A DNA stretch of 64,000 nucleotides from Manis javanica. Lineage: Eukaryota > Chordata > Mammalia > Pholidota > Manidae. Positions within the stretch are counted from its first letter, which is position 1; every line of letters starts with the position of its first letter. The translations under genes were made by a program, and so were the position numbers. Shown here in pieces: positions 1-35,200 of this stretch. The notes beneath the pieces were generated by a model. The model was not told where the DNA came from and did not search any database. It was given only the letters and a program-made list of their open reading frames with translations. The stretch lies in NCBI RefSeq assembly GCF_040802235.1, contig NC_133167.1, positions 139,001 through 203,000 on the forward strand, given 5' to 3'.

Positions 1-2663
<2,663 letters not shown>

Positions 2664-2699
2664 CTACAGTCTCCATGGCAACTGGGTTTGCTCAGAGAA

Positions 2700-3150
2700 G
2701 CGAGAAACAGTCCTTTTTTCTTATCCTTCTGAATATTTTTTATTATGCAAGCAGTATGTTTCAATCATAAGAAAAATTAGAAATAGATAAAGAAGAAAAA
2801 ATACAGAATCATAACATCGTCTGTGATCATCAGTGTGGTGCTGACATCCGCGCATTTTTCCATACGTACATGTGTATAAATTTCATATTTATTTTTCACA
2901 AATAGGAAATCATACTAAATCGACATACTGCCTTATGGCCTGCCTTTTCCCGCCCCGAGGATCATGCACCATGCCCCACGGTCTGTTTGCCCACCTCTGT
3001 CCGCGACCTGCATGGTGCCGCACTTGGTCATGGCAACCAACGTTATGAAAAATTTTACTGAACACGTATCATCGCAGATTTTCCCATGGTTTTTATTTTG
3101 TTTGCCAGACATGTGCAACATTTATGTAAAAATACCTAAAACAGAATTCA
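2700..3150. repeat. Ancient interspersed repeat, family not certain
   Basis: An AT-rich block inside GC-rich DNA. Its layout (A-rich stretch, then catcgtctgtgatcatcagt, then ttttccatacgtacatgtgt, then aggaaatcatactaaatcga) matches a common old mammalian repeat in which a run of A-rich sequence is followed by a 'conventional' vector of these blocks. A second copy with the same order of blocks appears at about 61280-61935. I cannot name the family with confidence; an old LINE tail is likely. Confidence 0.4.
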
Positions 3151-3174
3151 CAGCTTCACAAACTACACAGAGAC

Positions 3175-3490
3175 TTAGTTCAGCGCCGGAAGGAAGGCGG
3201 CCGCGGAGCTGTCCCAGCGCCCCTCCCGCGGCCAGCAGGCGCCTGGTGAGCCCCGCCCCCGGGGACGGCACCGCTTCGTTTGGCTGCTCTGAGCACAGTA
3301 AAGGGAATCCTGTACGGCGCGCTTTGCACACACGAGGCTGGTCGCGCCTCCTCGTCTCCTTGTTTGTGAGCTTCAGCCGCAGAGACACGAGTAGTAGCAG
3401 TGTGTCAAGGTGCCATGAGGAGAGTGAAGTGAGGAAAGATCCAGCCAGCGTTCAAGCAAGTGGGGAGGACCGCCGGGACGAGGATGCATA
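3175..3490. promoter_or_regulatory. CpG-rich block upstream of RTP5
   Basis: Dense CpG (for example ggcggccgcggagctg and cccgcccccggggacggc) stands out from the AT-rich repeat just before it. It lies 0.6-0.9 kb upstream of the RTP5 start codon in the gap between the divergent RTP5 and PDCD1 genes, so a promoter-type CpG island is plausible. A 188-codon open frame crosses it (2964-3530, plus) but starts inside the repeat and matches no protein I know. Confidence 0.35.
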
Positions 3491-5905
3491 TGAGAAGCCT
3501 GCGAGACCACCTTTGGGTGACTTTCACTGAGGATGCACCCTTGGGATCAGACCGCTTAGAGGCAGGCTGTCGCACCTCCTACTAATCCCTCAAGCTGCTG
3601 AAGGTGGTGACACCCAGCATGTCCTCTCCACCAGGCAGCAGGCTTGGAGGACTTGACCAGGGAGCTGGCCAGCCAGTACACCAAGGATGCTTGCTTCCCC
3701 ATGTGGCTGTTGACAGGCAGCAGAGTGAAGCCAAAGCCATAACGTGCCTACTCGGTGTAGGGTCCTGGCACCTGCCACAGGAAGCTCAGCTCTGGCAAGT
3801 CCTGAGCCCAGAGCCCAAGTCCGAAATGGCCCCAGAGGCAGCGGGAAACCTAGGAACACCCCTGCTGTTCTGTGCTCATGGGCCACTGGGGACCTCCCTT
3901 CCCCAGGCAGATGCCAGAGCTCATCCACTAGTGGAGGGGCAAGTGTCCAGGTTCTAGAGCCACAGCTTCTGCCAGGATAGGGATGAAGAGTGGTGTCAGG
4001 GGGACCAGGCACCATTTCCACACTATCACCAGTGACAATCACTGTTGGGAAACTTCACTGAGATGGCATCAGGAGGCCATGGGGAAATGGGACCCACATC
4101 AAGCACAGATGAGTGTCATCTATGGACCCTGTAACCACACAGGTGCCCTTGTCAGGAGAAGCCCCACAGACTCCCCAGTAACAAATCAAAGAGAAGCCGG
4201 CTTCCCCAAGTCATAACCCAGAGTGTGGGAACCACACTGGGAGCTTAGAGATGAATGAAAACGGGACTTTGCTGACCAAGTGGACACAGGGCTCTGAGCT
4301 CCCCAGAGGCCACAGACAGACTCTCCACTAGGGCATCCTTGAGGGGTCTTACAGGAACCTAGACCCACCCCCGACCCTAGTTGGGCCTCCAGCTGACCGC
4401 AGGCTGGGTGGAGCCAGAATACTGATGACTAAGGGTCCCGATCAGGCCCCATCACTCTCCAGGACCGTCAGGAGACAGGCGCAGGCTGATCACACTACCG
4501 GCCCCTCCCCACAATCTTCCTCTAAAAACCCCTGCCTGCAAGCCAAGGGCGAGTCCAGGACCTTGAGCATTAGCCACCTGTCCCCCTAGCCTGGCACCAG
4601 GCGGGAACCATCCACTGTCCTCACTATACCCAACGCTGGGGTTGTCTTCCCTGTAGGCCAGGCAGCGGAACCAGGTATATCTGGGTGGGTAAGAGGAGCA
4701 CCCTCTTCGGAAAGGGATTGTCAGTCCGTCACCCACCCCAGCAGGGCAAGGTGCCCCAAAACTCCGCCAGTAAGAGCCCGCCAGCCCCAGCCTCCGGCGT
4801 TGCTCCAGTGGACCCCTCCCCACATCCGCCTCCTCCTCCATGAAGTGAGGGGCCTCTCCGTGGCTGGTTCCACTTGCCTGTGGTTCTACCGGATCAAACA
4901 TTTGAGTCAGACATTTGCTTGCATGTCCCAAATTGAAATTCTCTATTGTTGCCAAATAAACATGTTTTCTCTGGTAAAATCCCTGTCATTTTATTTTTAA
5001 GGCTGCCCTGCCCCACCTGGCGGAGCTGCCCAGCCTCCCTGTGCCCCACGGACCCCCACCCCCTCTCCTCTTGGCTCTTTGACTCACACTCACTGCCTGG
5101 CTCTCATGTTTCTGAGCTTTGGTTTGGAGAGGGTGGCAGGGAAGACGGGGGCAGCCCTCACCACCGGGGGCAGATCTGAAAGCAGACCTTCCCACAGCCC
5201 AGGTTAGCCAGAGGACAGTCTCCCACAGGTGGTGAAGCTCAGACATCTGTCCCCCTGTTGGCCTGGATGTTGCCCTGGCACTGATGCTGTACCAGAGAGG
5301 TGCCAGGACTGGGACAGGATGGCCCAGCAAAGGAGGGGTTGAAGCTGGAGGCCAGGCCAGGGTTGGGGTGTCACAGGGTCCGGCTTGAGGCCAGCTAGCT
5401 GACTGGATGGCTTTTGCTCTATCAACAGGACCCCACCTCTGTGTCTGGGAACAAGAGAGGCTGAGAGGCAGACAGACAAGGAGAGAGAACTGGGCAGAAA
5501 TGGTGGTCATCAGCATGTGCGGTGCTGTGCTCACCCCAGACCTCAAAGAGGGAGTGCTGCTCCAGGAACATGGGTCACCTCCCTGGCCCTGGGCTCTGGG
5601 GGCATGTGGTCCACGTGTGTATCCCTGGGCTGCAGGCAGCTGGGGTGGCATCTCTGGATGGTGGCAGCCCCAGTCTGTCTGATCCTGTACCTAACACCCC
5701 TCCCTTCCAGCTGCTTGTCCCTGGCACACAGCCCAGCTGTGGTCAGTCAAGGAGCCAACCCCCTCCGCCAAGCCTGGGGGTGGGCACCCACTGGCAGCCA
5801 CAACAGGAGCCACAGAGGCTGACAGGGGGAAGAAGAGCCGGATGAGGGATGCCAGGGCCCGTGTGGCAAGGGAAGGCCGGTAGTCCCATGAGCAGCTCAC
5901 TTTAG
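3491..5905. other. Intergenic DNA between RTP5 and PDCD1
   Basis: No gene is recognised. It contains one arm of an inverted repeat (4152-4703) followed by sequence ending in an AATAAA (4955-4960) and a short T/A-rich tail near 5000, which looks like the end of an inserted element. The stretch 3540-4150 has no long open frame that I can assign. Confidence 0.5.
4152..4703 (+). repeat. Left arm of a 0.55-kb inverted repeat
   Basis: This segment is present again, inverted and diverged, at 9328-9866. Shared landmarks include agaagccggcttcccc, cactgggagcttagagatga, ctctccactagggcatcctt and ggtaagaggagcaccc. Similarity stops sharply at both ends. On this arm the sequence continues to an AATAAA at 4955-4960, which suggests a repeat with its own poly(A) signal, perhaps an LTR. 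I cannot name the family. Confidence 0.75.
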
Positions 5906-6559
5906 GAGTTTTTCACCACATAACAATTGGCCATAAGACAATTTTTCCGTAAAAGGTAAAAAAATAACTGGTTGGCAGCTTGGTTTGACAGTCTGGTTTC
6001 ATCAACTGGTAGTCGGTTCAGCTTCATTTCTGCATCGATGCAGGACTAGCATTTGTATATGTCATAAATCTCAGCCCCTAAAGGCCTGTACAGCATGTAG
6101 TGCTCAGCCTGCATTTCCCATAGAGGTCTCGGCACAGGTCTGAGGACAGGTAACAGTACACCTGTGTGGACAGCTCTCCCGCCGTGGAGCTCAGGTGCAA
6201 AGGCACCTTGCCTCCCGGGATTGGGAAACGGATGTCTCTCTTAATGAAGGAAGGAACTTGAGCGTGAATGACAGCACAATGGGATCAAGGAGATGAACCC
6301 AGAGCAGAAGAAGGTGTCAGAAGACCATCCTCCGGTACAAGCATAAAACGCCGTCGGCCACTTGCGCATTGCCATGAGTCCACACACGTTTTAAATGAGC
6401 TCGGGTGTTTCACATTTTGCAATAAAGTCTTTTTAATTTTGCATTCATTGTCCATGTTTCATCATGTACTTCTTAGCGAATGTCCCTTTTATTTTCTGTG
6501 ATTTTATGTCTCATGGCAAAATTGCCTCCCAGCCAATCTGTTACGTGATGAAAATACTC
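5906..6559. mobile_element. Candidate non-autonomous DNA transposon with imperfect terminal inverted repeats
   Basis: The left end reads gagtttttcaccacataaca followed by attggc. The reverse complement of the right end reads gagtattttcatcacgtaac followed by agattggc. The two ends align over about 45 bases with roughly three quarters identity and a few one-base gaps, giving a 654-bp unit. No clear target-site duplication is visible in the flanks. No transposase frame is recognised inside. A DNA transposon or MITE-like element is the simplest reading; a chance or foldback repeat cannot be excluded. Confidence 0.45.
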
Positions 6560-7189
6560 GCAACAAAGATGCTCCGGCAAACACGGAGAACTGAGAGCCT
6601 GTTGGTGGTGTACTCATGGAAGAGATGGGCAGGCATATGGGGCCATGGCTCCCCTGGTTGCCCACCCCCCACCAGGACCCCTTCCCAAAGCAGGAGAGGG
6701 TGTAGAATAGATGCTGCAGCATGTTCTCCAGGTTCCCACACAAAATCTTGTGTCTTGGGCAAGATTTTGAGACTCGGTGTGCCTCGGTTTCCCGGACTGT
6801 AACAGGTGGCCCCACACGGCGCAGAGCCCTCCGTGTGGCCGATGCTGCGTGCAGGGTGCCCCTCCTGCTGTGCCCCAGGCTCAGCAGTCCCACTGCAGCC
6901 AATCTTCCATTCTGGGATGCATCTCCTTCCGCTCCCAATTCATTCCCTGTATCTATTATTTCTGTCTTTCCTTGGCCATCCCATCCCCCACCTTGCTTAT
7001 GTACATGTTTTTCTTGCATTGTATGAGCTACGCAAATCCAGTAGTTTGTGACCCCATCCTAGTGAGCGAGAGTAGGTCAGAGTAGCAGTTTTAAATGGGC
7101 CAGACTTGAGTCCGGGGCAAATGAGTCTGGGGTAAAGCCATCACTGAGAGCTTTGGAGCCCCAGTCAGTCACCTCGTCTCCTTGAGCAG
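6560..7189. other. Non-coding DNA upstream of PDCD1
   Basis: No exon, RNA gene or clear repeat is recognised. Open frames here overlap on both strands and have no protein likeness. Confidence 0.5.
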
Positions 7190-7690
7190 AACTTACCTGG
7201 CTGGGGTTGCCGTAACAAGTACTACGGGCATCAGAAGTGCCTTGCCTGGCAGTTCTGGAGGCTGGAAGTCCAATGTCGGGGTGTAGGTAGGGTCAGTCCC
7301 TTCCAGACATCAGGGAGCATCTGCTCCAGGCAGCTCCCAGCCTCTGGGGACAGCTGGTCATCTTGGTGCTCCTTGGCTGGTAGACACATCACCCGGCCTC
7401 TGCCCCCATTTCCCAAGGCCTTCTCCCTGAGCGCAATTCTGACCTCCAGACTCATCTTAACCAGTTACTGCTGCAAGGACCCCCTTTCCAGATATGGTCA
7501 CCTTCTGTGGTGCCGGGCTCAGCACTGCAGCATGTGTCTTTGGGGGCTCAGCCCAGAGCACGACTCACATCTGCAAATTCTGGGGCCTCAGTGCCCGCTG
7601 CAGCCCTAGTTGCAAATTTCTCCTTATGCTCCAGATGTTCTCTGGGGACCGCAGCTTTAACACAGTCTCGCGGTTGAGATGCTCTGGTGC
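7190..7690. mobile_element. Old MaLR (MLT1-type) LTR fossil, diverged
   Basis: Diagnostic blocks in order: ggggttgccgtaacaagtac, agttctggaggctggaagtc, catcttggtgctccttggct and gcaaggacccccttt. These match the common mammalian MaLR LTR consensus as I remember it. The same family lies in the opposite orientation at 61945-62310. It is a broken, solitary LTR; the MLT1 group predates or accompanies the placental radiation. Confidence 0.55.
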
Positions 7691-7889
7691 CCCAATCCAG
7701 CCCTCTGGCTGGACCATCTTTCCCTGATGGGAGCCAAGTAAGTTACCCCCTGCTTTGTTGGAATGTCATCGTCCCCAGCTTCCTCGGACCTAGAGCAGCA
7801 GCCCCCTCTGTCTTTGCCCACAACTTGGCATTGTATTTTTAATCAAATCTCAATTTTATTTTAGATATGGAAAGCCTTAGAATTAGAAA

Positions 7890-8625
7890 TTTTTTGAGGT
7901 ATAAAAATTATATAAGCATTATATTAGTGTCAGCTATACAATGTAATGATTCAGTATTTGTATATATTGCAAATGATCACCCCACAAGTCCAGTTAACAT
8001 GTCACCACACATAATCACAATGTTTTTGTTGTAATAAAAACTTTCAAGATTCCACAGTATGATTATTTATACATATTATTGGCTATACATATACATTATT
8101 AGCACATACATCCCCAGGACTTACTCATTCTGTAACTGGAAGCTTTAACTTTTGACTCCCTTTCCCATTTCACTCCTGTGTCCCCCACCAATCTATTCTT
8201 TGTGTCCATTTTTTTTAGATTCCACATGTCAATGAGATATGGTATTTGTCTCTGACTTATTTCACTGAGCAAAAAGCCCTCTAGGTCCATCCATATTGTT
8301 ACAAATGGCAAGAATTCATTCTTTCTCATGACTAAGTAACATTCCATTGTGTATATGTACCACATATTTATCCATTCGTCTACCTATGGACACTTTGGTT
8401 GCTTCCACATTTTTGGCTTGTAAATAATGCAGCAATAAGATAAACATAGGGGTGTATATATCTTTTCGAATCAGACATGTGGTTCGCAAATGTCTTCTCC
8501 CACTCTGCAGGCTGCCTTTTCACTCTGTTGGGGTCCTTACTGTGCAGAAGCTTTTTAGTTTGATGTCATCCCACTTGTTGATTTTTGCTTTTGTTGCTTG
8601 CCCTGGATACTTGGAGTGTCCAGAC
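7890..8625 (-). mobile_element. L1 LINE 3' end, minus strand
   Basis: The plus strand shows the antisense of a classic L1 tail: tatttgtatatattgcaaat, agttaacatgtcaccacaca, ggtccatccatattgttaca, taacattccattgtgtatat and gtgcagaagctttttagttt. The minus-strand frame 8365-8099 reads NEFLPFVTIWMDLEGFLLSE, the typical L1 ORF2 end. It is truncated, with some internal sequence missing. Confidence 0.85.
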
Positions 8626-11600
8626 CAGGGGTGCAGACCACCACCTGGGTATGTCTGATGTGAGTTCGTGGGAGATCATGTTTGTCCTTCTTGGGTACCC
8701 CATCGGGGACCCCACGATGGACACACTCCCTCTGTGCCCACAGTGAAGGAGGTGAAGGTGCCCCTTTTGCTGTGATGAAGAGACCCACGGGGGCGGCTGG
8801 GGCCTGACAGTACTCCAGCAGTGCTTTCAGCTGCACAGATGGGTCTCATCTAAATCAGGTGTTAGGCGGTGGCTGTGAATGTGTTGCTGGTGAGGCCGCC
8901 TCAGAGCAGGGCCTCTCTGGGAGCCAGGTCAGTGCTGCCTCCTACTTACAGCCTGTCCACGTGGGCTCTGCCCTGAGGGTCTCCCCACCTGCCCTACCGA
9001 GGCACAGCTCCCTCTTCCTAACCATGCCCAAACACAAAAGAGGCCTGGGGCCCCTCACTGACACCCCATTATCAAGTATAAAGTAAAAAGACAACATGTA
9101 AAATTTTAATTAGATGAAAAATATAAGAAAAGATGCATAGACGTTCATACTATGGGGATAAAGCAAATCCCAGTCCACCAACCTTAAAAGGAAGGCCTGT
9201 CTTCAGCCCCACGCAGGGAATTGCTGGGCTGACTGAAGGTTAGGTGCACCTGAGGCACCCATTGCAGGCTCCCAGGTCCCAGCAAGATCCCGGGAAGCAG
9301 AGAGGCCGCCCAGCCCCATCCCAGCTGGGTGCTCCTCTTACCCACCCGGACGAGCTGGGTCTGCTGCCCGGCCTGCAGCAAAGCCAACCCCAGCGTCGGG
9401 GTGTAGTTAGGACACTGGGCAATTCCTGCTGGGCACCAAGTTAGAGGACAGGTGGCTAATGCCCAAGGTCCCAGACTCGCCCTTGGCTCGCAGGCAGGGG
9501 TTTTTAGAGGAAGATTGTGGGGAGGGGCCGGTAGTGTGATCAGCCTGCGCCTGTCTCCTGACGGTCCTGGAGAGTGATGGGGGCTGATCGGGACCCTTAG
9601 TCATCAGTCTTCTGGCTCCACCCAGCCTGGGGTCAGCTGGAGGCCCAACCAGGGTTGGGGGTGTTTCTAGGTTCCTGTAAGACCCCTCAAAGATGCCCTA
9701 GTGGAGAGTCTGTCTATGGCCTCTGGGGAGCTCAGAGCCCTGTGTCCATTTGGTCAGCAAAGTCCTGTTTTCATTCATCTCTAAGCTCCCAGTGTGGTTC
9801 CCGCACTCTGGGTTGTGACTGGGGGAAGCCGGCTTCTCTTTGATCTGTTACTCGGGCTTCTCCTGAAGGCTACATTCCCCCGTGGTGTTCCCGGGCCCCC
9901 ATTCTCAGGGCCCATCTTTCTCCATCTGAGCAGGCCCTGAGCGTCAGCAGGGGTCCTCCCTGTGGCCCTGCACCCTGGCCAGGCCACCCAGAGCCCCTGA
10001 CGTAGCAGTGAGGTGTCCTGTGGTTCATTCAGCTCTGGAGCAGCCACAAGGTGACAGGCCTGCCCCCACCCACACCACTCCAGAAGCACCACCTTACCTG
10101 TGTCGGGCCACCTCCACAGCTGCTGTGTCCACCCCCTGCCCTCGAGCATGCTTCAGCAGGGCGGGTGGATATACAAGTGTGCTGTGGAGAGGGGCCCGAG
10201 GGGCAGCAGGAACCTGAAGGGCCACCAGGAGGATCTGGAGTCTTGGGCCTGAGCAGGATGAGCAGCCACTATACAGAGACCCAGGCAGATGGGCCAGGCC
10301 AGGGCAGGGAGACCTGTGGGTGGGCCAGACGCAGGCAGCCCAGGACCCCACAAAGTTCAGACCCCGTGGGAGGCACCACAGTGAGCTGAAGAGAAGACAG
10401 TGACTCAAATGGTCACGAATTCAGGTCACAGGTGGGGCAGATGAGGGCCCAAACCGAAGAAAAGTGGGGCAGCCCCATCCACACAGGGCGATGATGGCTC
10501 CCAGGGCCCAGCAGCACATGTCCACACAGGGGCTTCCTGAAGGGAGGCCTGCAGAGGGGCTGTGCAGGAAGGTGGCTTCTGTGCACATACTGTTCTCCCC
10601 CAGGGTAGCTTCTCAGGTCACCCTGACCATGAGAGGCGGGTGGCTCCATCCAGACCTGGGATTCCTGGGGGTATCTGAGAAGAGGACCTGGGCTTCTGGT
10701 CCCAGACTCGGGCATGCCGCAGGAGGGAGGCGGGAAGGCGGTGGGGCAGGCAGGCCGTCCTCAGAGTCAGGGTGGGCCCCACAGGTCCCACTGGCTTAGT
10801 GCTGGAGCGCCCCACCATGACACCTTCTGCCTGATCTCTGTGGAATCACACTATGTGCTTCTTGAATAAATGTATAAAGAAGATGCGCATTAAAACTGCC
10901 AAGGGAAGCTCCTGGCATGATGTGCTGGTTGTGGAAGGTTTGGACACAATTAGGAATAAGAAAAGACCACTGCTGTTTGTGTCACCCTGGGAGAGCCAGA
11001 GGAGTGGGCAGATTCCCAGGCTCCAGGGGCCTGTAGCTTTGATGAGAAAGGGGCTCCACCTCCCCTGGGCAACCCCATCCAAGCCTGGCCCCCTTCCAGG
11101 CCTCCTTGGCCTCCCCAATGCCCTCTGCCCCCCAACTGGTGGGATGAGCCTTCCACAGAGATGTGTGGACCACCCAGCCTGCACAGAGCACCCCTTCCAC
11201 AGGGGGCAGGGCACCCCAGCCTGGGAGGTCTCCTGGCCCCAGCTCATGGGTGGTGCCCACCCTTATATCTGGCACATGATGCAATCTAAGGGAACAGCAC
11301 CTACAGTCACCAGACTGGCCATGTGCCAGCCCCTCAGCCTATCAAAGGCTGGGAAAGGTGCCAGAGGAGGGGCAACAGTGGCCAGTCCAGGCAGACTGGG
11401 CCCCGGTCTCCCCAAGCCCCGGTGTAAGCCAGGTGGTCCCCACTGCAAGGACCATCCTGTGATTCCCCCTTGTGCCCAGTGCCAGGTGGCCCAGGAGGGA
11501 GGCCTGCCGGTCACATGTGCCCTGGCGTGGCTCACTTGGATGGGCCCTGCCTGGCACCAGCTGCAGTGCCCTGGGTCCCTGCACCATCTCCTCCTCCTCA

Positions 11601-12289
11601 GTGAGTAGGCCACTGCAGACAACCTCAGGCCATTCCTTCCCTGGATGCAAAGGGACCCCTTGCCAAGTCTGTGCCATCACATGTGAGGAAGCCTGCCCAG
11701 CACACATCGCTCAGGGCAGAACCCAGTAGAACCCTGAGTGCACAGCCAGGAAGAGCAGAAAGGAAGGGTGGCAGTTAACAGCTCAGGTGAACAGGGTGAA
11801 GCAGCAGCCACCCCATCATCCCAGGACTGGAATTGCAGTTGGCACAGTGACTGTGGAGCCCAGTGGCATGGGACGTGTTAGGTGGCCTCACTGGGCCACA
11901 CTTCAGGTCTGGGTGTTTGTTCCTGATGGGCCCTCCCCACAGCAGGGAAGCCAAGGCCGAGGCCCAGAGCAGCATGGCAGAGGGCTGAGCACGGGTCCCA
12001 GGTGCGGGCTCATGTAGGGGGCCAATGGGAGCAGCTACAGACCCAGGGTTGGGTCCAGACAGAGAAGCTTCCTCTTCTGAGCCTCAGTTTCCCCAGTTAT
12101 AAATCGGGGATCTTGGACCAGCCTGCCACGGCGAGCTGACCACACAGGGGCAGACCTGGCAGGTATGGGCTCAGCTATGGCTCCTTCCCCGGACCCTGGG
12201 AGCTTCTGACCTGCCCATATAGCCATTATAGTCAACCTTGATTCCATGTAGATGCGTCACCTGGGCCGCCATGGGAAGGCCTTCCTCTG
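8626..12289. other. Upstream or intron 1 DNA of PDCD1
   Basis: No coding exon is recognised. The region should hold PDCD1 intron 1, and perhaps its promoter and leader exon, if the layout is as in human, where intron 1 is several kilobases long. The second arm of the inverted repeat is at 9328-9866 and an AT-rich unassigned stretch at 9065-9180. Open frames of 100-250 codons around 10850-11620 are on both strands at once and look like GC-rich chance frames. Confidence 0.5.
9328..9866 (-). repeat. Right arm of the 0.55-kb inverted repeat
   Basis: This is the reverse complement of 4152-4703, diverged by point changes and a few gaps. The best-conserved part gives matching short peptides in the two arms, such as SSLSSQCGS followed by GKPASL on opposite strands. 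Sequence beyond 9328 to the left differs from that beyond the other arm. Confidence 0.75.
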
Positions 12290-12557
12290 CATGCCAGCAA
12301 GCCGAGTGTGAGTGTGCAAGGGCATGTACACTCATGCATTCATGTGTGGATGTGAGCATGCCAGCAAGCCGAGTGTGAGTGTGCAAGGGCATGCACACTC
12401 ATGCATTCATGTGTGGATGTGAGCATGCCAGCAAGCCGAGTGTGAGTGTGCAAGGGCATGCACACTCATGCATTCATGTGTGGATGTGAGCATGCCAGCA
12501 AGCTGAGTATGAGCGTGTAGGGGTGTGCACATTCATGCATTCGTGTGTGAGCATGGC
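12290..12557. repeat. 67-bp minisatellite, four copies
   Basis: The motif start catgccagcaagc occurs at 12290, 12357, 12424 and 12491, an exact 67-base spacing. The first three copies are nearly identical; the fourth has several changes and fades into TG-rich sequence. It lies about 0.5 kb before PDCD1 exon 2, within what should be intron 1. Confidence 0.93.
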
Positions 12558-13044
12558 TGTGGTGGGAGTGAGAGTGTGGCTGTCCATGCAGGGGATGAGA
12601 GCTTACATTGTACATGTGGGCATAGCATGAGTGCATGTGTCAGTGAGGCTCTTGCTGGAAAGGGCTGCCAGCCCCTGAGAGGTGGCTACAGGTCTTTGTT
12701 TTGGGGGCCAGCTTGGTTGGGCCTCTTTTTCCATTCAGGGGCAATGCCCCAGCCCGTCTCTGTGAACTCCAGTCCCCAGAGTCCCTGCAGGAGACACGGG
12801 GGCCCCTCACTGCCCATGTCGGTGGTGCCTGCACCATAGTCCCAGTTCTAAGCTTGTCTTGAGATGGGGGCCAAGTCTAGAGGAGTTGCAGGGCTCTGTG
12901 GTGATGCACTGCCAAGGGGATTCCAGCAAGGACAGAGCCTTCCAGAATCTTCCTGCGAGAGTGCAGGAGGGAAAGTGGGAGGGGAGGGCCTGGTGGTCTG
13001 TGACACACCTCTCCTCACAGCCACTGGTTCTCCCCACCTCTCAG

Positions 13045-15382
13045 ATGCCCATGTCAGGCCCTGGAGCCCCCTGGCCTTCTCCCCAGCCCAGCCTGCAGTG
13101 CCCGAGGGGGCGAATGCCACCTTCACCTGCAGCTTCTCCAGCACATCCAAGGGCTTTGTGCTCAACTGGTACCGCATGAGCCCCAGCAACCAGACAGACA
13201 AGCTGGCCGCCTTCCCTGAGGACAGCAGCCAGCCAGGCCGGGACAGACACTTCCGAGTCACACCGCTGCCCGACGGGCAAGACTTCCACACGAGTGTGGT
13301 TGCTCCCAGCGCAATGACAGTGGCATCTACCTCTGCGGGGCCATCTGTCTGCTTCCCAACATGCAGATCACGGAGAGTCCCCTGGCAGAGCTCACAGTGA
13401 CACAGGTGTGGGCCTGGGAGACCCCAGGGCAGGGTGAGCGGGAGGGGGGACCCCCAGAGCAGGGCGGGCAGCCCTCAGCAGGAGGTTCCAGGGAAGCGAA
13501 GGCAGGAGGGCCTGCTCCAAGCTGACTCCCATCGCTCCGCAGAGCCAGTCCTGGAGCCACCCACAGAGCGCCCAGCCCGCCACCCAGGCGCACCCCACTG
13601 CAAGTGGTGGGCATCACGAGCATCCTGCTGAGCTGCTTGCTGGTCTTTCTGCTGTTGGCCTGTGCCCTGGCTGCCGCCTTCCCTAGGGACACTGGAGGTA
13701 ACGCCCAGGGGTGTAGCCCAGCACACAGACGCCCCTCCTGCCACGCTCCACAAACAAGGCCCCCCAGGGAGGGTGCACAAAGTCTCCCCAGGGTCTAGGG
13801 TCCCCTCCCTGGTGCAGCTCTGAGGGGTTGTGGAGAAGCTGTCAAGGTCACACAGAGAGGCAGGGAGCTGTCCCCCGCCACAGGCTGAGCCACCCTGCCT
13901 GCCACCCCCCAGACCTCAAGCCACAGGACACTGCAGAAGAGCCTCTAACATCCTCTGGGCTCCTGCGGTGACACACAACCACCGGGGGAGAATCGGGATG
14001 CCCACCCCACCCCCACGTGCACACACTGGCTGCAGGCGGTGCTGGAGCCTGGCCCTCGTCCTCACTCCTGCAACAGGTGGACGGCTCTGGGGCTGGAAAG
14101 AGGCATGGTTCTCCAGGGGCCACGGCCTCAAGGGGACCTGGCTCGGGGGTCAGCCCCTCCCCATGCCCCACTCGCCAGCTGTGCTGGCCACGCTCTCCCG
14201 AGACAGCCACCTGGGGGACACAAGGCCAGAGAACAGGCGCCCCAGGGCCTGCACAAGCCCCCAGCAACAGCCAGCCTCCCCGCCTCCCCAGCATTTGGGG
14301 GAGCAGCTGAGTGAAGGTGGCAGCGCTTCACCGGCAGCCTCCTGGCCTCTGTGGAAGCTCACTTCTCCAGTGACTCATTTTTTCTTCCTTCAAGTAATTT
14401 TGAGAATGCGCTGTGTGCCCATGCCTGCCACAGGTGGAGACACACATGGCACTTCTGTGCAACAACAGCTGGAGATGGCCCCTGCAGCTTCATTGATTAT
14501 ACACCTGCTGAGTGCTGTCCGCACCAGCCAGGCTGGAGGGTGGGTTTGGTGCCCTGCAGTGGGCGCTTGGCTTGGTCATGCTGCCACAGAGACCAGAAGA
14601 CTAGTACTGGAAGCCAGTGGTCCTGCGTGCCTGGTACCCAGACAAATCATGATCCAAACCAGACCCTTGGCAATGGGGGAGGGGAGCTCCTGGTGGTCCT
14701 GGGGAGTGGGGATTTGGTTGGATGACGGAGCAGAGGGGAAGACACTGGGCCGCAGTGCCCTGGGGGCAAGGAACCCCACGGAGACTCCAGGGGAGGACTG
14801 CTGGCCTCCCGGGCTCCTTTACTTCAAGGCATTTCTCTGCAGGGCCCTGCACAGGCCGGAGCCTGGATGAGCCTCTGGTGAGCCCCTTCCCTTTGTGGCT
14901 GATCCCATGGGCCCCAACTGCGCCAAGGGTAGGCTGGGGTGGCACTGCCTAGGGGTAAGCATGCTTCAGGGCAGCCATACCCGGCACCGACCAGGTCACC
15001 ATGTTTGAACCTGGGGCCACAGGGCTCTGGTGGGGAGGGGGGCACAGCCCTGCCCCCACTCTGTGTGTGTGCACGTGTGTGTGCCTACGCGCAAGTGCCT
15101 GTTGGCCACTCAAGAGACACTGACTGCTCCCTCCTTGTCCCCCCCAAGAAGGAGGGCCCGTCCACCATGCCTGTGTTCACCGTGGACTATGGGGAGCTTG
15201 ACTTCCAGTGGCGAAAGAAGACCCCGGAGCTGCCCACCCCCCATGTCCCTGAACAGACAGAGTATGCCACCATCGTCTTTCCAAGCAGGCCAGTTTCCCC
15301 AGGACGCAGGGCCTCGGCCGACAGCCCCACCAGGCCCCAGCCTCCAAGGCCTGAGGATGGCCACTGCTCTTGGCCCCTCTGA
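13045..15382 (+). pseudogene. PDCD1: PDCD1 (PD-1), exons 2-5, reading frame disrupted
   Basis: PD-1 is an inhibitory immune receptor of activated T cells that binds PD-L1 and PD-L2. Exon 2 (13045-13405) encodes the IgV domain, with FVLNWYRMSPSNQTDKLAAF matching human PD-1 exactly. Exon 3 (13543-13697) encodes stalk and membrane segment (VVGITSILLSCLLVFLLLAC). Exon 4 is 14843-14877, 35 bases as in human. Exon 5 (15149-15382) encodes the tail with ITIM VDYGEL and ITSM TEYATI and ends EDGHCSWPL. Three length changes break the frame relative to human, dog and bovine proteins: one base missing at about 13301-13310, two extra bases at the exon 2 end (GTGACACAG where human has GTGACAG), and one C missing near 13571. 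After the first, the frame reaches TGA at 13398-13400, before the second Ig cysteine and the membrane segment. The leader exon 1 was not found. Splice sites look normal. A sequence error is possible but would be needed three times. Confidence 0.85.
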
Positions 15383-17004
15383 TGGCCCCTAAGCTGGCCT
15401 GTGTCCTTCAGACCATCCTCCAAGACCCCGGGGTCAGCACCTTCCCTGGAGGAACACGCATGGGCACAGTGGTGGGGCCACTCCTGTCTGGGGACCACCC
15501 CTGCACCTGGGTTCAGCCCGCCTGGCCCTCCTGTCACTGATCAAGGCAACCTGGGGGCTGAGGGTGGGAGGCGTCACCATCCAGCTCAGCAGAAGGGGAG
15601 GACACTTGCTCAGGCTCCAGGCCCAGGCCCGGCCGAGCTGAGAGTCAACCCCTGAACTGCATCTCTGCATCTCGGGGCACATGGGGGAGCAGGCAAGTGG
15701 GGGCACAGGGCCCTGGTTGGAGACTCTGCCTTGGACCCTGGTGGGGTGCCCCCACAGCAAAGGGATCCAGCACACAGTGCAGGCCCAGTGGGGGAATGTG
15801 TGGGGCTGGGCCCTCCAGGGTGCCTGGTGCACCTGAGCCTGGAAGAGAGCTCCTGGCAGCAGCGGGAGGCAGAGGCAGGGAGCCCACGGGCTGACCTCTG
15901 CATGCCTCCCCTCACCCTAAGCAGGCCTGGCCCATCAGGCAGCCTGGAAGCTGAGGTGCTGAAGGGACAGGCCAAGCTGGGGCAGTCCCACTGAGACTAG
16001 AGCCCAAGGAGTCTCCCATTTGTCTGTGCTGGGGGTCTCCTGTTCCTCGCAGCCCACTCAGGGTGCTACTTAACGGGGCCTGGCCAGGCTCCCAAGGGGT
16101 GGGGGGTGGGGGCAGGTGTGCTCTCGGAGCACATGTCCCAGCGTGGGCTCTGCACACACTTGAGGGCCCCTCCCTGTTCTGTTATCATCATTAAATCATG
16201 ACAAAACCTGTAAGAAAGGCCCCAGCTCTCCTGCCCACACGGTTGGGGAAGGTGGGGTGGTCCGGCCCAGAGGGTGGGAGGGTCTGGTCCTCACAAAGGA
16301 CAGAGGCCACACACCAGCTCACCTCACAGTCTCCCACAGGCCCTCCCAGGCCCCTCATCTCTGTGCCCCACCCTCCCACTCACCCCTCCTACACAGCCAC
16401 AGCCTCCATGGTGTGAAATCCCTCTGACTTCACAGGCTGCCAGGCATCCCCCAGAAGCCCATCCTAGGGTCCCACAGCCCTCTGCCCTCAGAACAACTCC
16501 ATCTGGCATGGGGCATCCAGTATCTTCCCTGCTCCAGTTCCCCCATGCCCCCCACACCTGGGAGTCCCTTCAGGCTGGGTCACCGCCCCAGGTGGGGCCA
16601 AGATGAGTGGGTGGGCTTCACCAGGCTGTGAATGAGTGGGTATTGGAGTGTTGCAGGCAGGTGGGGAGCGACATCTATGGGGAAACTCAGCCCTACGTGT
16701 GTGAAAAGGAAACCTCTCCTGTCCTCCAGGAAGGGAGTGCATCACCACCATAAAGGGTCCTTGTGCCCTGTCCCCATCTGCTGTGGCCCTCCCAGTGGGC
16801 CTCGTCTGAACTCCCAGGGCCAGGAGTACAGATGCCCTGCCCACTCCGAGCCCTCAGCACTCATCCTGTGCCTACCCTGAGGTCCTGTCCCAGTGGGGTG
16901 GGCAATGGGCACCACTCCAGGACAAGGCAAGGGTGCTGCCATGCTCTGGAGGTGCCAAGCAGGAGCAGGCATCGACTCCAGGGAGTCTGTAGGTGATGCA
17001 GTTT
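15383..17004 (+). other. PDCD1 3' UTR region and flank
   Basis: GC-rich sequence after the PDCD1 stop codon. In human the 3' UTR is long (over 1 kb). A possible poly(A) signal ATTAAA is at 16190-16195, about 0.8 kb after the stop. Nothing else is recognised up to the L1 pieces at 17005. Confidence 0.45.
16190..16195 (+). terminator. Possible PDCD1 poly(A) signal (ATTAAA)
   Basis: ATTAAA is a common variant poly(A) signal and lies in an otherwise GC-rich 3' flank on the PDCD1 strand. Position and strand are the only support. Confidence 0.35.
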
Positions 17005-21064: not shown

Positions 21065-23525
21065 TCAGGAGGGCAGGCAGCGCTCCACAGGCTTGCCCAC
21101 ATGGCTGGGCAGCAGGGGACCTGCTGACACATTCTCCAGGACCTCACGCAGAGAGAACATGCAGAAGCTGACCTCCTCGTAGGAGACCCTGGCCCCGCTC
21201 TCAAAAAGACAGGCGAAGGTCAGGCCCCCCTTGGAGGTGGGCCCAATGGACGCCAGGTCAGAGTAGCCACTGGGGCCCTGGTAGATCACCCAGGGCTCTG
21301 TCCAGCTGTGTGGGTCCAGGGGAGACCTGCTCAAGTAGATGCCCATGTGGAGCCGAGCCCTACGCCCAGATGGGTGGGAATACAGCAACCATGTGGGGCT
21401 CTGCAGGAAGGCAGGAGGGGGCCCAACAAGCCTGTTCCCACCGTCCCCACATCCCTCCATCACACCAGGCCCACAGCCCCCGCAGGTATCTCCAGAGCCT
21501 TCCTCTGGGGCTTTCTGGACCCCAGGACAGAGGCATCGAGTGTGGGGGGTGTTCCTGGCATCCACAGACCATCCCTTATCTCTCAGCTTGCTGGAGGGTG
21601 GGGCCAGGAAGCCCAAGATGCTGCCCTGGCAACCCCTGGCAGTCTCAGCCAGGGAGGGCACAAGCTCCCCTGGCAGGAAGGACGTGCCCTCATCCTCACT
21701 GAGCGCCTGCACACGCCTGCCCAGAGGGCTCCGGGCATTGCAGTAGAGGACGCTGCCAGCCTGTCCACTGTCCACCACAGCCAGCTGGCACTCGCCTGAG
21801 CGCAGGTTGGGTACAAGCCGTCCTCGGTGCCAGGTGTGGCCGTGGTCATCGCTGTAGAAGGCAAAAGCATGGGGGCTGGTCCTGCAGATCTTGCCAAAGC
21901 ACTCTCGCCGGTCCACACGGTAGGTGTAAGCCGGTACCAGCAGGCGGCCCGAGGGCAGCTGGACACCGTGGCCTGGGCCAACAGCGAATGTAGCCCAGTC
22001 TGCAGAGAAGAGAGATGCCAGTCACCCTGGGAAAGGGAGCATCCTGGGGATTGGGGGGCGCTCTTGAGGAAGCCACCCTCAGACCATCCCCCTACCCTCC
22101 ATGCCTGCGGCCACCCTGTACTGGACAAGCCTCTCCACCATTAGCGGTAGCGGGGAGCCAAGGCAGGCGCTTGACCAGGTGCTCAGCGTGTGAGCAGGTG
22201 GCCACTGTGAACACTGCCCAGACAGGGCCGTGGGGACCTTCAGCTCAGGGTCTGAGAGGCCCCTCCTAGGCTGGGCCCCAGCCCCGCGGTGTGAGGTCCA
22301 CACCACCAGACGGCTCCTTGGATCAGATGTGTGTCCCAGCAGGTTTCAGAGCCTGCGTGTCCCTCACTTTAGCTCACACCTACCAGAGCGGAGCGGGGAT
22401 GGAGCTAGGGGGGAATCTCTGGGACTGGTGGCCCCTGGGGTCAGCGTCCACATGCCAGGTTCCGGGCGGCCCCAGGCGGTGGTCAGGAGTGCAGTGAAGC
22501 TTTCGGGTCAGAATGCCTGCCCCTCCGGCTCCTCAGGCTGACCCCCGCCGCCACCCTGCCCCGGAGGGTGAGAAAGAGGAGAAAGTAGTAAAGTTGGTGT
22601 GGAGGCCCCGGGGGTCGGGCCGAGGTGGATCAGGCTCAGAGACAAGCTCAGGGAGATGAAAGAGGCGGCTCCCGCCTTTGCGGGGCTGAGCACTTGCGGG
22701 TGGGGGCGCCCGGAACAGCAGTGGCGGCCCTTAGACTGGGACGACGGGGAACCTGCGGCTGGATGCCCCCCCGCGGGGCGGACCCCGCCCCAGAGCTGAT
22801 CCCCACCACCGTGCGGGCCCCTGCGCCGGGCAGACTCCTCGCACGAGCGCGTCCCCGCTCCCACCCCGTGCGCACCCCCCCCCCCGCCCCAGTGCAGGCT
22901 CTTCCTCCTCGCGGACCCCTCCGCCCCGCCCCCGGCAGGCCGCTCCGCATCGCGGACCCCTCCCAGCCTGCCTACCCTGCTCGGCGCTGCCCACCGCTTC
23001 CTCCGTGAGGTCCCGCGCGCCACCCCAGCTGCGCCCCGCGTCGCGGCTGGTCACGCAGCAGAGGCGCGCGGCGTTCCTGCCGGCGGCGATCTGCGCGGCC
23101 TCCGGCGTGCGGCCGCGCACAGCGATGAAGAAGAGGAAGACGGTGGCCGTGCGCGCGTCGTGCACGGGGCAGGGGTTCATGGACCGGTGCTCCTCCAAAG
23201 CAGCTGTGCCCAGCACGCGCGCGGCGCCCCACTGCCGGGAGGGAGGCAGGGAGGGCCGGCGGCCTCAGTTTACCGCGCGAGCGGGCCCGCCCCACCTCCC
23301 GGCCGCGGGGCGCGGGCCGCTCACCCGCACGGAGCCCCCAGCCAGCGTGCCGGTCCTCTGCACCAAGCGGTGGGCGTGCGCGTCGTCGGGGCTGAGCCGC
23401 TGCTCCGCGAAGGCCAGCAGGATGGGCGCGGGCGGCACCGGCAGCAGCGCGGGCACGCGGTAGGTCAAGCCGCTCCTCTCGCGCTGGAAAAGTACGGTGC
23501 GCCCAGGGACGCGCGGGGCCTCCAT
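21065..23525 (-). CDS. NEU4: NEU4, sialidase-4 (complete coding region, three exons)
   Basis: Exons: 23525-23325, 23231-22976 and 21999-21065, joined in phase with normal GT/AG ends; the total of 1392 bases encodes 463 residues. The start MEAPRVPGRTVLF aligns with human MGVPRTPSRTVLF. The sialidase arginine motif is TYRVP (21-25; usually FRIP/YRIP). Asp-box motifs are SRDAGRSW (129-136), SDDHGHTW (202-209) and SEDEGTSF (253-260). Conserved active-site regions include RRECFGKICRTSP and GPSGYSDLASIG near the C-terminus. NEU4 removes sialic acid from glycoproteins, oligosaccharides and gangliosides, in internal membranes such as mitochondria, ER or lysosomes. The loop between the third Asp box and SPTWLLYSHP is shorter than in human NEU4 (484 residues) and rich in Cys and Gly instead of Pro. 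The gene looks intact. Confidence 0.95.
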
Positions 23526-29265: not shown

Positions 29266-32212
29266 CTACAGGAAGGGGATGTTCTTGGGGGGCTTCTCCG
29301 GGAACTGCTGGGTGTACAGGTGGGCCATGTACTGGAGCTCGGGCGTGACCATCCTCTGGCACACGTGCCATGTGTGGTTGTCCAGGCCCTCCCTGAGGTT
29401 GTAGCCCAGGATGTCAGCCTCGCCCGACTGGAAGGGGCGCAGCTGTGGGTCGGTGATCTGTGACTGGTTCTTGGGCACACCGTCCTGCAGACACAGGGCC
29501 TCGAGCTCACGCCGCCGCGCCCGCAGCTGTGCCACCTCTGAGTGCAGCCGCTGCAGGCCCAGTTCAGTGTGCACACGGGCCCAGAAGGTGTGGTTGAAGT
29601 GCTGGTAGAGGCGCCAGTCCAGCGCACACCAGCGCTTGGCGCGCTCCTGGCTCTCGCGTGACAGGCTGGCCACGCTGTGCTGGCTGCGCGCATTAAGCCG
29701 GAAGGCCACCACATCGTCCAGCTGCCAGCGCAGCAGGTGTCGCAGCAGCACCAGGGACTCGTCCAAGTGCTCGGCAATGAGCACCAGTTGGAAACGCCGC
29801 TGCACAGTGGCCAGGCGTGCGCGCACGTAGCCATCGGCAAGCGGTGCATCGCTGTCAAAGCCCAGGTCGAACCACATGCTGTTCCTGGCATAGGCATTGC
29901 TCAGGCCCGCGCTGCGGTTATAGTAGGTGTCCGGGGAGGCCAGGAAGGCGTCCAGGTTGGGTGCGGCCCTGAAGGCGGGCACCACGGCTCGGTAATAGGT
30001 GAAGGAGGACTCCAGCTGGGAGACGGGGTTTCTGAGGATGGAGAAGTAGAACGTGTCATCGTGCATGACCTTCTGCACCTGCAGGGAGACAGAACGGATG
30101 GGCGGCTGACTCTCCTCCCGGAGCCCAGGAAGCACCTGGCCTCTTGCGTCACCCTGCCCCCAGGCCTCTGTCCCCTGCCCCCTGCTCTGCACCCCTTCAC
30201 CTCTCCCACCCGTCTCCCTGCATCTGTCCAGGCCACCTTGCTCCTGTACCCGCTCTTCTGCACGAGGGTCCAGGATGACCCTAAAACACCTGAATCACAT
30301 GCCCTCCCCAAACCTTCCCTCTCCTGGCACTCAATCAGGGAAGCCTGGGGGAGCAGGTGACCTCTGAGCTGGGACCTGGGTGACCCAGCTGTGCAGAGCA
30401 TCCATGCCCAAGGGGACATCCTGGGGTGGGAAGGGCCAGGCAGGCCTGAGAGCCAAGAGGCAGTCAGGGAGGAGGAGGGAGAGAGCGGCGGGCATGAGGG
30501 TTGGGGTCTGATTTGCAGAGCAGTTGCAGGCACCAGGCAGCCAGTCGGGGGAGCAGCAGGGTCTGCACAGGCCTCCACCAGCCCCCCACAGCTGCCCAGC
30601 CCGGAGCCCTAGTCTCTCCGGAGGCTAGTGCGCGCCCTTGCCGCGGTCACACCTCAGAGCCGCAGAGGGCAGCCCGGGCTGGGGGCAGAGCCCCCCCGCC
30701 CCCAACACGCTATGCAGCTGCACCTCACCTCAGGCAGGTTAAACCTCAGGTGGTTGCACATGATGTTGAAGCGCCTCTGCCCACCATCCGGCCCGGCGCC
30801 CTCCACATAGCGTGCCACAAAGAGCCAGGGGTAGCCCAGGTGGAAGCGGGTGCCCGCGGGCAGTGCCACAGACAGGTTGTGTGCCTCGGCAAAGCGGAAG
30901 AGGACATTCAGCACCGTGCTGCTGGCGGTCTTGTGAGTCTTGAGGAACATGACGTTGGTGACAGGCGGCCCCTCTGCCCGGTCCCCGGGCAGGCTGGGAG
31001 GAGAGCACAGAGCTGTAAGGCAGCAGGGGCCCAGGCTGCCAGAGCCCTGCCGGAGAGGCCCCACCAGCAACACTCACCTGCTCCCCCAACCCCAGGACCC
31101 CCAATCCAGGAACCCCCTAACTGCATGACTCCTGACTCAGCAAACCCCAAACCAATGCCACCTACCTGGAGACCCCCAAGCCATCTCCCATCAGCAAGAT
31201 CCCCCAACCCACAATCTCTACACTGGTGACCCCCAACCTGTGCCCCAACCCCAGCCTGTCACTGTGCTCCCCCAACCCTACAGCTCTGAAGGACCCACTG
31301 GCATAGACACAATTATGCCCTAAGTGGCTACACCATCTGTGCCCAACATACCACAGGTGGGCCCCCCAGCCCTGGTACCCCCTCAGCTCCCCAACCTCCC
31401 GTGTGGCTCCCAAGGCTCCTTCGCGCTGGATGCAGGGCCGATGCAGCGCTCACCCCACAATGCCTTGCCAGTGCCTACCCAGCTGTGGACGCTGTTTGGA
31501 ACAGTAGGCACCTCCCCGTCCCATCACAGGCCCCGAAGCAAGGCCAGGGAGAAGGACCTGGAATGCTGGGGGACAGGGCCCAAAGGCCTGTGCCGGCCCT
31601 GAGGACAGTGGGGCCGCTGGCAGAGACCCAGGAGCTTTGGCCCTCCCCATCTCCCAAGGAGACCCAACCAGTTTGGGGGGGCAGGAGAAGGTGACCTGGG
31701 GCCACAACACCCTCCCAGCAGCAGGCTGAAGCCCTGGGCCTGGGCAGCCTTCCGTGTGGACACTGGGCTGCATCAGGACAAATCAGCAGCAGGCAGGTCC
31801 TGACCTCCCAGAACCACCAGGTACCAGCTCTGCCTTCCAGCACCTGGGCTCCTCTGCACATGGCAGATCTGCCCAAGATATGGCAGCCAAGGCCCAGCCC
31901 CCAGGGGTGAGGGGGAGACACCGGGAGGGCCTCAGGAGGCTAATGGGCCCCCCACGAGGAAGGGCCTGCCCCTCCTCTTACAGAAGGAAGACTGAGGCCA
32001 GCAGAGAGGCATGACCTGCCACGGTCATTGGCCAGTGTTTGGTGACACCCTGTGGTGGGCAAGCTGGGGCCCCAGGTGCTGCTCTGGGAGGGGCAGTACC
32101 CAGACTGCAGGGTACCCAATGCAGGACTCACGTGAGCAGCCCAATGTCCATGCACAGGAAGCCTGCCAGCAGGAACACAGTCAGGACCAGGAGGAGGAGG
32201 ACCCGGAAGCAC
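29266..32212 (-). CDS. GAL3ST2: GAL3ST2, galactose-3-O-sulfotransferase 2 (first short coding exon not seen)
   Basis: Exons: 32212-32132 (81 bases), 30993-30729 (265) and 30078-29266 (813), all in phase with GT/AG ends. They encode about 385 residues; human has 398, of which about ten N-terminal residues (MMSMLGGLQR) come from a separate upstream exon that I could not find. The order is: type II membrane anchor ([16 protein letters not shown]), 5'-phosphosulfate binding motif [13 protein letters not shown], 3'-phosphate binding motif [16 protein letters not shown], then conserved blocks [33 protein letters not shown] and [19 protein letters not shown]. The stop TAG (29268-29266) follows NIPFL, two residues earlier than in human. 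The enzyme transfers sulfate from PAPS to the 3-hydroxyl of terminal galactose on O- and N-glycans in the Golgi. It looks intact. Confidence 0.93.
30994..32131 (-). other. GAL3ST2 intron with C-rich low-complexity stretch
   Basis: This intron lies between the membrane-anchor exon and the PAPS-binding exon. At 31080-31290 the plus strand is a loose, irregular repeat of C-runs and AC-rich pieces (acccccaa-type units, no fixed period). Nothing else is recognised. Confidence 0.6.
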
Positions 32213-35200
32213 CTGTGGGTGGCAGGAGCCTTCAGCCCCCTTAGGCCCTGTCCGTGCCCCACCCTCAGGGTCCCTGTAAGAGCTTGTATTGAAGACCTGC
32301 AAGAACCACCGTGGGCATCCTGGGGCAAGGGAGAAGAGACCAGGCCCCACCCTTACCCGGCCCCTGCCCCACCCTCACTGCTCAGAAGCCAGGAGAAGCT
32401 GGGAGGCGGGATGTTCCTGACAGGTGGGTCAGGGGACCCTGCCCCAGAGCAGGACCCCCTGGGGTAAGTCAGGGGAGGGGTACCACAGGACGAGACCCTT
32501 GGAGGGCCTGCCTAGGGGCCAGGAGCTCAGCAGGGGGGATGCAGGCCGAGGTCGCTGGGCTGGGGTGCCCAAGGAGACACTAGCCAGATCACAGAAGAAA
32601 CAGGGCTGTGATGAGGCCTGCCCTGGGGCTTGGGCAGGGAGTCCTGGGTCCTGCCGTCCCCTGGACGAAGGAGCTGCAGTGCCCCCTTTACCCCTCCTTC
32701 CGTGGCAGAGATGCTCACATCTGGGCAGTGCTCCATGGCAAGCAGTGGGTGACAAAATGGGCCAGCATGAGAGGCCTCCCTGCCCCTCCCCACCCTGAAG
32801 GCCACCTTGACCAAAAGGCTGGGGGGTCCTGGGAGAGGGAGAGGAGGCTCCAGCAGTCTGGGCTCACCATACACGTGCAGGGCACCCCATATTTACATCC
32901 CCAGCCTGGGCTCACCAAAGGGGTATCTGGGTCACTGGGGCATCAAAAGGCCTTGCAGTCACCAGGTCCAGAACACAGCTTCTAATCTGCCCCCCAAGCC
33001 CACTGCCCCTCCCCCATGGTGGACAGCAGTTCCTCTAGCTACTCTGGCCGTGGGGGCCCCTCAAAGTGCCCTGTGTTGAACCAGGCCCACTCACTTCCTC
33101 CTGGGCTCCTGGCAGCTGTTAATCCTGGGTACCCTGCCAATCTCCCTTGGCAGCCCACACTACCCTTTATTACATAGCCCAGCAGCGTGCCCCAGCCCTC
33201 CCCCTTAATTGAAAAAGCTCCTCTACTGAAACCCTCATTGAGTGTGTCACCCCAGGAAAAGTGCAGGTCCTCCCAGTACTCTCCACGCCCATCCTTGACC
33301 CTCCCACCTCCCTCTCCAGCCCCGCCTCTCCTCCCTGGTCCTCAAAGGCCTCTGGGACTTTGCAGTCACCCAGGCTTCAGCATGGTACCCTCTTCACAGT
33401 TATCCACACAGCTCCAGTCTCTGCTCGACTCCCACCTTCCCCAGGGGCCTCCCCACCTCCCTGCAGGAGTGATGTCCTGTCCTGAGTGGTTTCCCTTCAG
33501 TGGTCATCACCTGAGGGTCACAGTCACAGTGTCTGTGCTGTGAACTAGCGAGTGGTAAGCATTCCTGCTCCCGGAGGAGCATCCGGCATGTGCGAATGTT
33601 CAGCCTCTCATTTGCTGAGTGAATGAATGATGAACCAGGAACACACTCCCTCTCCCAAGTGCAGACACCCCTGTTTGAGATGGCCTGAGATGGAGGAAGG
33701 GGAAGCCATGGGGCAGGGACAGGTCTGGAAGGTGGGGAGATCAAATCTGTTGAGTGTGAAATGTCTGTGACGCCCAGGTGGAGATACCAGGCAGTGTCTG
33801 GAAAAGGAGTCTGGCGCTCAAGGAGTTGCCAGGGCTGGGACACACATATATGCAGCAGCATTAAAATGTCCTTTCACTTAGCTCCTCAGCCTCAGAAGTC
33901 AGAAACCAATCAGAAAATCTAGTGGTGGATTTTCCTCATTCTAGACGTCTGGAGAAGGGAGGCCACTGCTTCTGGCCAACTCAGCCCCATCATGTTAGGG
34001 TGTTTATATCCTCTCTTCCTCCTCAGGTGTGTCCTCATAGTCACAAGATGGCTGCCAAGCTCCAGATATCACAACACTGAGATCAGAGAGGGGAGGAGGG
34101 ACAGGCCCCACCTTGATAAGCAGCCAAAAGCCTGCTGGAAGCCCCTAACCTTGTTGGCCAAAACCCAGCTGCAAACGGGCACTGGGAAAGCTTTATGCTG
34201 AGCTTATAGCCCCTGCAGTGGGGGGACAGGGAGAAGGTGGTGGGTGCTCGCCTCAGCTATATTTATGCAGATCTTGGGCCCCAGCTGGGCTCACTTATGG
34301 AGGCCGGCACGTATTTGAACATAATACAAGAGGCCACCTCTTTCACAGCCTGGCTAGTGGCCCAGGACCCACGTGGCTGGGCCAATAGCGAGGGGCTCCC
34401 TGAAGCCCAGAACTACCCAGATGTCAGTCCTCTGTTCAGTCCTGACACACACATGGCAGGCACTTCACTGGTGCTGGGTTCCACTTACAGAAACCACAAA
34501 CTCGATGGCCCAGAGCACAGAGCCACTGAGCAAGATGGCAACACCCTGGCCCGGCCACCTGGGGGCGCACAGCAGAGCACCGGAAAAACCACCACCTTCA
34601 GAGCCTCTGTGGTCCTAGCTTTTATTTTCCTAGCATTGACTGATAAACCCCCATTATTTTTCTGCCTCATTAGTGATTTCAACCCCTGTGCACTAAGAGT
34701 ACCTATTTGCACTGAGGTATTTTTGGCTGATTTTCCAGCAGCAGCAGTTCTGTGTGGCTCCTTGGCCCAGAACCACTCATACCTCCTCAGCAGGGGACAG
34801 TACCCCCCTGCCCCTGATGCATGGCACAGGTTCCTTCCCTCTTGCAGACAGGGTCAGGTGGTAGGAGCAGGGGTCTTTTCTTCTGCCTGGAAAGCCTGAG
34901 CCAAAATGTTCCGGAACCTCCATGGGGGGGCCTCGGCCTCCTTTGGGCTGTCCTGCTCCCATCACCCCAACCTCCTGCATGGGACCTGACCACCCAGCTG
35001 GGTGACACTGATGGTGTAGTGGATTAACCAGATTAGTCCTACACCCCAACTTCTCGGGGAAAGGAGGTGCCCACGTGCCCTGCATGACCCCTCTGCGAGA
35101 AACGACACGGTCTTGGGTTCCGAGCACTAGAGACGTGACCCTGAGAGGAGCTGCCCAGCCTGGCCCCCGCCTCCAGGACTGACTGGCAGGTGCTCATCGC

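Follow-up and report, generated by a model that had tools for sequence, protein, structure and literature searches.

The analysed window is a whole stretch of 64,000 nucleotides from the Malayan pangolin Manis javanica (C12:139001-203000), taken from an assembly of 2,559,957,944 bases in 63 contigs; the full 2.56 Gb is the scope of the genome-wide searches described here. In the window, the end of RTP5 (minus strand), exons 2 to 5 of PDCD1 (plus strand), NEU4, GAL3ST2, and a part of D2HGDH (minus strand) were found in this order. This is the arrangement of an orthologous PDCD1 locus, RTP5 - PDCD1 - NEU4 - GAL3ST2 - D2HGDH, and presumably matches the human gene order around PDCD1. The neighbours served as controls. 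RTP5 (2-2555, minus strand) has an open frame of 300 amino acids at 2-901 reaching the window edge, a first exon at 2448-2555, and a match to the zinc-ribbon family PF13695; I take the name RTP5 from the domain, the synteny, and the protein start. NEU4 (21068-23525, minus strand) is free of frameshifts, and its joined exons are 100% identical over 463 amino acids to M. javanica sialidase-4 (P0121, a cluster of 10 sequences), a match by which the species is almost certainly the Malayan pangolin. The matched exons of GAL3ST2 (29269-32214, minus strand) and the matched 3′ exons of D2HGDH (51773-62996, minus strand) are also open. In total, the matched exons of these four genes have 0 frameshifts in about 1,400 codons, a summed figure in which some stretches include intron margins. 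The window contains no N bases, and its 12001-16000 section is GC-rich (0.626). Scans of the window for tRNA genes and Rfam families gave no matches, and a SINE search of the window with consensus sequences gave one MIR fragment only. A tandem repeat with a unit of 67 bases (3.9 copies, 94% matches) lies at 12289-12549, about 500 bases 5′ of PDCD1 exon 2.

PDCD1 exon 2 (13045-13405, plus strand), which encodes the IgV domain of PD-1, has an AG acceptor and a GT donor and is 361 nucleotides in length. Up to 13304, its native frame encodes 87 amino acids with 92% identity to the PD-1 of Manis pentadactyla. From about 13307, however, the native residues switch to another frame, due to a one-base loss at 13301-13310. 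Translation in the native frame, started at the exon 1/2 junction, yields 118 residues, the final 31 of them out of frame, before it reaches a premature TGA at 13398-13400 with a C as the next base. A gain of two bases was found just 5′ of the exon 2 donor (13398-13405). The second Ig cysteine, in the motif YLCGAI, is out of frame, so the IgV domain does not have both of its cysteines in one frame; the Pfam V-set match on exon 2 covers only profile positions 3 to 74 of 109. The TGA also precedes the membrane segment, the ITIM, and the ITSM. The first-pass annotation of this DNA had reported these features of exon 2, including the stop and the displaced cysteine, and had concluded that neither a membrane segment nor a tail can be made. 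The joined exons and a frame comparison with M. pentadactyla PD-1 bear this out, since both parts lie downstream of the TGA.

Exon 3 (13543-13697, plus strand), encoding the stalk and the transmembrane segment, also has AG and GT ends and is 155 nucleotides in length. Native residues flank a phase change near 13571, where one base has been lost in a short C run (13571-13573, within 13568-13574) relative to the M. pentadactyla protein. Exon 4 (14843-14877, plus strand; 35 nucleotides, AG/GT) encodes GPCTGRSLDEPL, as in M. pentadactyla. The coding part of exon 5 (15149-15382, plus strand; 234 nucleotides) is open, with an ITIM (VDYGEL), an ITSM (TEYATIVF), and the native stop codon; the ITIM and ITSM are thus present in the exon, but behind the TGA of exon 2. 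The exon 5 acceptor at 15140-15149 reads CCCCCCAAG, with AG and an A at position -3. An A at this position of a splice acceptor is uncommon.

The exon lengths of 361 and 155 and all three length changes had been claimed before, at the places where they were found here. What had not been pointed out is that the three changes total zero. In the joined exons 2 to 5 there is a single stop, and beyond it the membrane segment, VDYGEL, and TEYATIVF are all read without interruption until the native stop is reached. Since the zero sum brings the membrane segment, the ITIM, and the ITSM back in frame after one stop, the loss appears to be recent, and the downstream part of PDCD1 shows little decay. The zero sum is no proof of selection, because three random indels often reach it by chance. 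Exon skipping does not restore the gene. It had been argued that skipping exon 2 is of no help, and this was confirmed: without exon 2, the frame runs into a TGA within exon 3, at 13629-13631 (a hand-counted position). If exon 3 is skipped, the stop of exon 2 remains, and if both exons are skipped, the resulting tail lacks a membrane segment.

Is the frame also broken in a related pangolin? The closest protein is PD-1 of M. pentadactyla (P0001, 286 amino acids), which has 88% identity to the query and is not labelled as low quality. It is an orthologue, with 240 of 260 residues identical to those of the window (this count includes two residues at the breaks that were entered in their native reading). 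In contrast to the window, it is complete, with an exon 1, a second Ig cysteine, and an unbroken frame. Thus, the comparison with a sister species that the first-pass annotation had proposed finds an annotated, intact PD-1 in M. pentadactyla at the protein level. The protein implies lengths of 360 nucleotides for exon 2 and, counted by hand, 156 for exon 3, on the assumption of conserved splice points, as P0001 is known as a protein only. Strict patterns were applied to the best 120 of 176 PD-1 matches, isoforms included; the second-cysteine motif was found in 109, the ITSM in 111, and the ITIM in 84. None of these best 120 of 176 carries the name of M. javanica. The ITIM is VDYAEL in M. pentadactyla and VDYGEL in the window, and 14 of 15 outgroups have the G. 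These 15 outgroup species, chosen from the same 120 proteins, were used to polarise the 20 of 260 positions at which the window and M. pentadactyla have different residues. Eight were derived in the window and three in M. pentadactyla; among the others, one is probably window-derived and eight are ambiguous. The excess on the window branch (8 vs 3) points to a possible relaxation of constraint, although it is not significant (chi-square about 2.3).

Exon 1, with the start codon and the signal peptide, is expected between RTP5 and exon 2 (2600-13044, plus strand) but was not recognised there, a gap that had not been pointed out before either. The exon 1 residues of M. pentadactyla were not found by tblastn in the window (best E 0.002, gapped) or in the 20 kb upstream of it (best E 0.003). 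A frameshift-tolerant profile was built from 62 distinct exon 1 sequences, including that of M. pentadactyla. Its maximum in the expected interval is 66.5, at 5611-5661, while exon 1 of M. pentadactyla scores 176. The score of 66.5 exceeds those of all six shuffles (maximum 57.0), but the profile reaches 72.3, 69.2, and 66.5 elsewhere in the window, and so this candidate was rejected. Two other candidates were rejected on the same grounds: 5556-5664, from a DNA alignment to human exon 1 (score 39, runner-up 37), and 11868-11912, from tblastn (E 0.002 with gaps). In the 2.56-Gb assembly, an exon 1 core pattern (32 places, up to three mismatches; without a positive control of its own) had 0 matches, and a protein search with P0001 at E up to 10 matched exons 2, 3, and 5, while exon 1 was not matched. 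That a protein search can pick up a short first exon was checked with a human CTLA4 query, which does detect the first exon of pangolin CTLA4 (E 2.3e-4). Exon 1 has been lost, has changed past recognition, or is absent from the assembly, and its absence could be a misassembly. An inverted pair of a 532-base repeat (4173-4703 and 9327-9856, 90.6% identical) lies inside the expected exon 1 interval and is a possible route to rearrangement.

A search with the shifted exon 2 peptide found P0241, which has the source label 'lgn' and two member sequences on two contigs, the longest of 1643 bases. I have taken this source to be the Logan assemblies of public reads. P0241 is 99% identical over the full query, including the shifted part, with one residue different, and it stops at the same point. 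It begins with the residues of the window's intron 1 in the same frame, which indicates that the contigs are genomic or unspliced. Since P0241 was separately assembled and differs by one residue but shares the exon 2 shift, this lesion is not a consensus error. It covers the exon 2 loss and the stop only, with the two-base gain and the exon 3 loss outside it; its species is unlabelled, and its reads may come from the same animal. Other assemblies had been named as a place where a normal phase might reappear, and in P0241 exon 2 keeps the shift and the stop.

PDCD1 exon 2 was found once in the assembly. With P0001 as the query, 70 candidates were scored and 43 matches obtained, four of which are the PDCD1 locus. 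The other 39 have E values of 1.4e-4 or worse; 36 are on C1 and C8, where I read them as TCR and Ig V genes, and one each is on C14, C9, and C4. Thus, neither the exon 2 search nor the P0001 search of the 2.56-Gb assembly found a second PD-1 copy. Viral contigs scanned with the PD-1 tail yielded no relative. The human CTLA4 query has four stop-free matched stretches at C12:30223403-30228522 (about 30.22 Mb); on the same contig, a weaker match that is probably CD28 lies near 30.33 Mb.

The first-pass annotation had read PDCD1 as a pseudogene in this species, and the frame loss and stop in exon 2, the phase error in exon 3, and the unrecognisable exon 1 support that reading. As it stands in this assembly, the gene is almost certainly unable to make PD-1. 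The features are those of a unitary pseudogene: the frame is destroyed by more than one lesion (three length changes, a stop, and no recognisable exon 1), no functional copy was found elsewhere in the assembly, and the gene is intact in a close relative, M. pentadactyla, as a protein. It is therefore very likely that the Malayan pangolin carries PDCD1 as a unitary pseudogene, inactivated after the split from M. pentadactyla. The extension from this assembly to the species is my inference. The well-conserved tail and membrane segment, in frame again, count against the pseudogene reading.

As for the mechanism, the one-base loss in exon 2 puts the end of the IgV domain and the second cysteine out of frame, and translation ends at the TGA. 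The two-base gain and the exon 3 loss add further phase changes. A transcript with a stop so far upstream of the last junction may be subject to nonsense-mediated decay. Alternatively, at most a truncated IgV fragment might be made, without the second cysteine, the membrane segment, the ITIM, and the ITSM. T cells without PD-1 inhibition would then rely on other checkpoints, for example CTLA4, whose matched exons are open.

The loss may be real but polymorphic, with functional PDCD1 alleles segregating in other Malayan pangolins. The conserved, in-frame tail and membrane segment, which suggest a recent loss, fit a segregating null allele, and the sample consists of few sequences. On the other hand, P0241 differs by one residue and has the same shift and stop, PDCD1 carries several lesions, and no PD-1 named M. 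javanica is among the best 120 of 176 matches. I consider such a polymorphism unlikely and the loss likely to be fixed in the species. Less probable still is an error of assembly or base calling, under which the animal itself would have an intact gene, with consensus faults behind the indels and the missing exon 1. One lesion does fall within a short run of C, where errors are typical, and the surrounding stretch is GC-rich; nevertheless, the separately assembled contigs of P0241 repeat the exon 2 shift and stop, the four neighbours have no frameshift in a window without N, and the three indels and the absent exon 1 are concentrated in a single gene. The loss is very likely real, with a confidence only slightly below that for the assembled gene itself. 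A UGA with C as its next base is prone to leaky termination, and readthrough of the sole TGA in the otherwise open exons 2 to 5 could give a receptor with a membrane segment, an ITIM, and an ITSM, but this is scarcely credible, as the IgV end would be scrambled with the second cysteine out of frame, no recognisable exon 1 supplies a start and a signal peptide, and three random frame-changing indels often total a multiple of three.

If PDCD1 is indeed a unitary pseudogene, what does its loss mean? PD-1 is a brake on T cells, and blocking it is one of the main cancer therapies. Mice deficient in PD-1 develop autoimmunity, and in people the deficiency leads to severe disease. A wild mammal without PD-1, beside a sister species with a complete annotated protein, would let nature show which purpose PD-1 serves and what can replace it. 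PD-1 is described as conserved from sharks to humans (PMC12151841); that study treats the same gene family and motifs, and its main text mentions pangolin or Manis 0 times. By titles and the first lines of abstracts, a literature search largely outside subscription papers gave no report of PD-1 loss in a mammal among the papers listed. Pangolins are described as lacking cGAS and STING, a loss of CGAS and STING1 placed in their common ancestor (PMC7291609), and as having lost IFIH1 and ZBP1 (PMC7225364). These cases resemble PDCD1 in that pangolin immune genes were inactivated by mutation. They differ in that the products serve as innate sensors or, in one case, as a signal adaptor, while PD-1 is an adaptive checkpoint, and in that the CGAS/STING1 loss is ancestral to pangolins while the PDCD1 loss is later than the M. 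pentadactyla split. It is tempting to speculate that all Malayan pangolins are natural PD-1 knockouts that keep CTLA4, and that the loss was tolerated or even favoured in a setting where the absent cGAS-STING and MDA5 signalling lowers inflammatory drive; I regard this as possible rather than probable. If true, the species would test whether lost innate sensing renders PD-1 dispensable, and the finding would bear on virus tolerance in pangolins and on the health of captive animals.

In one section of a qPCR study of five species including M. javanica, PD1 is stated to be expressed in chicken only (PMC7066927). The same section describes all three PD genes as high in heart, liver, and spleen. 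The qPCR result agrees with the loss of PDCD1 but carries little weight, because the three other species were also negative and because of the tissue statement.
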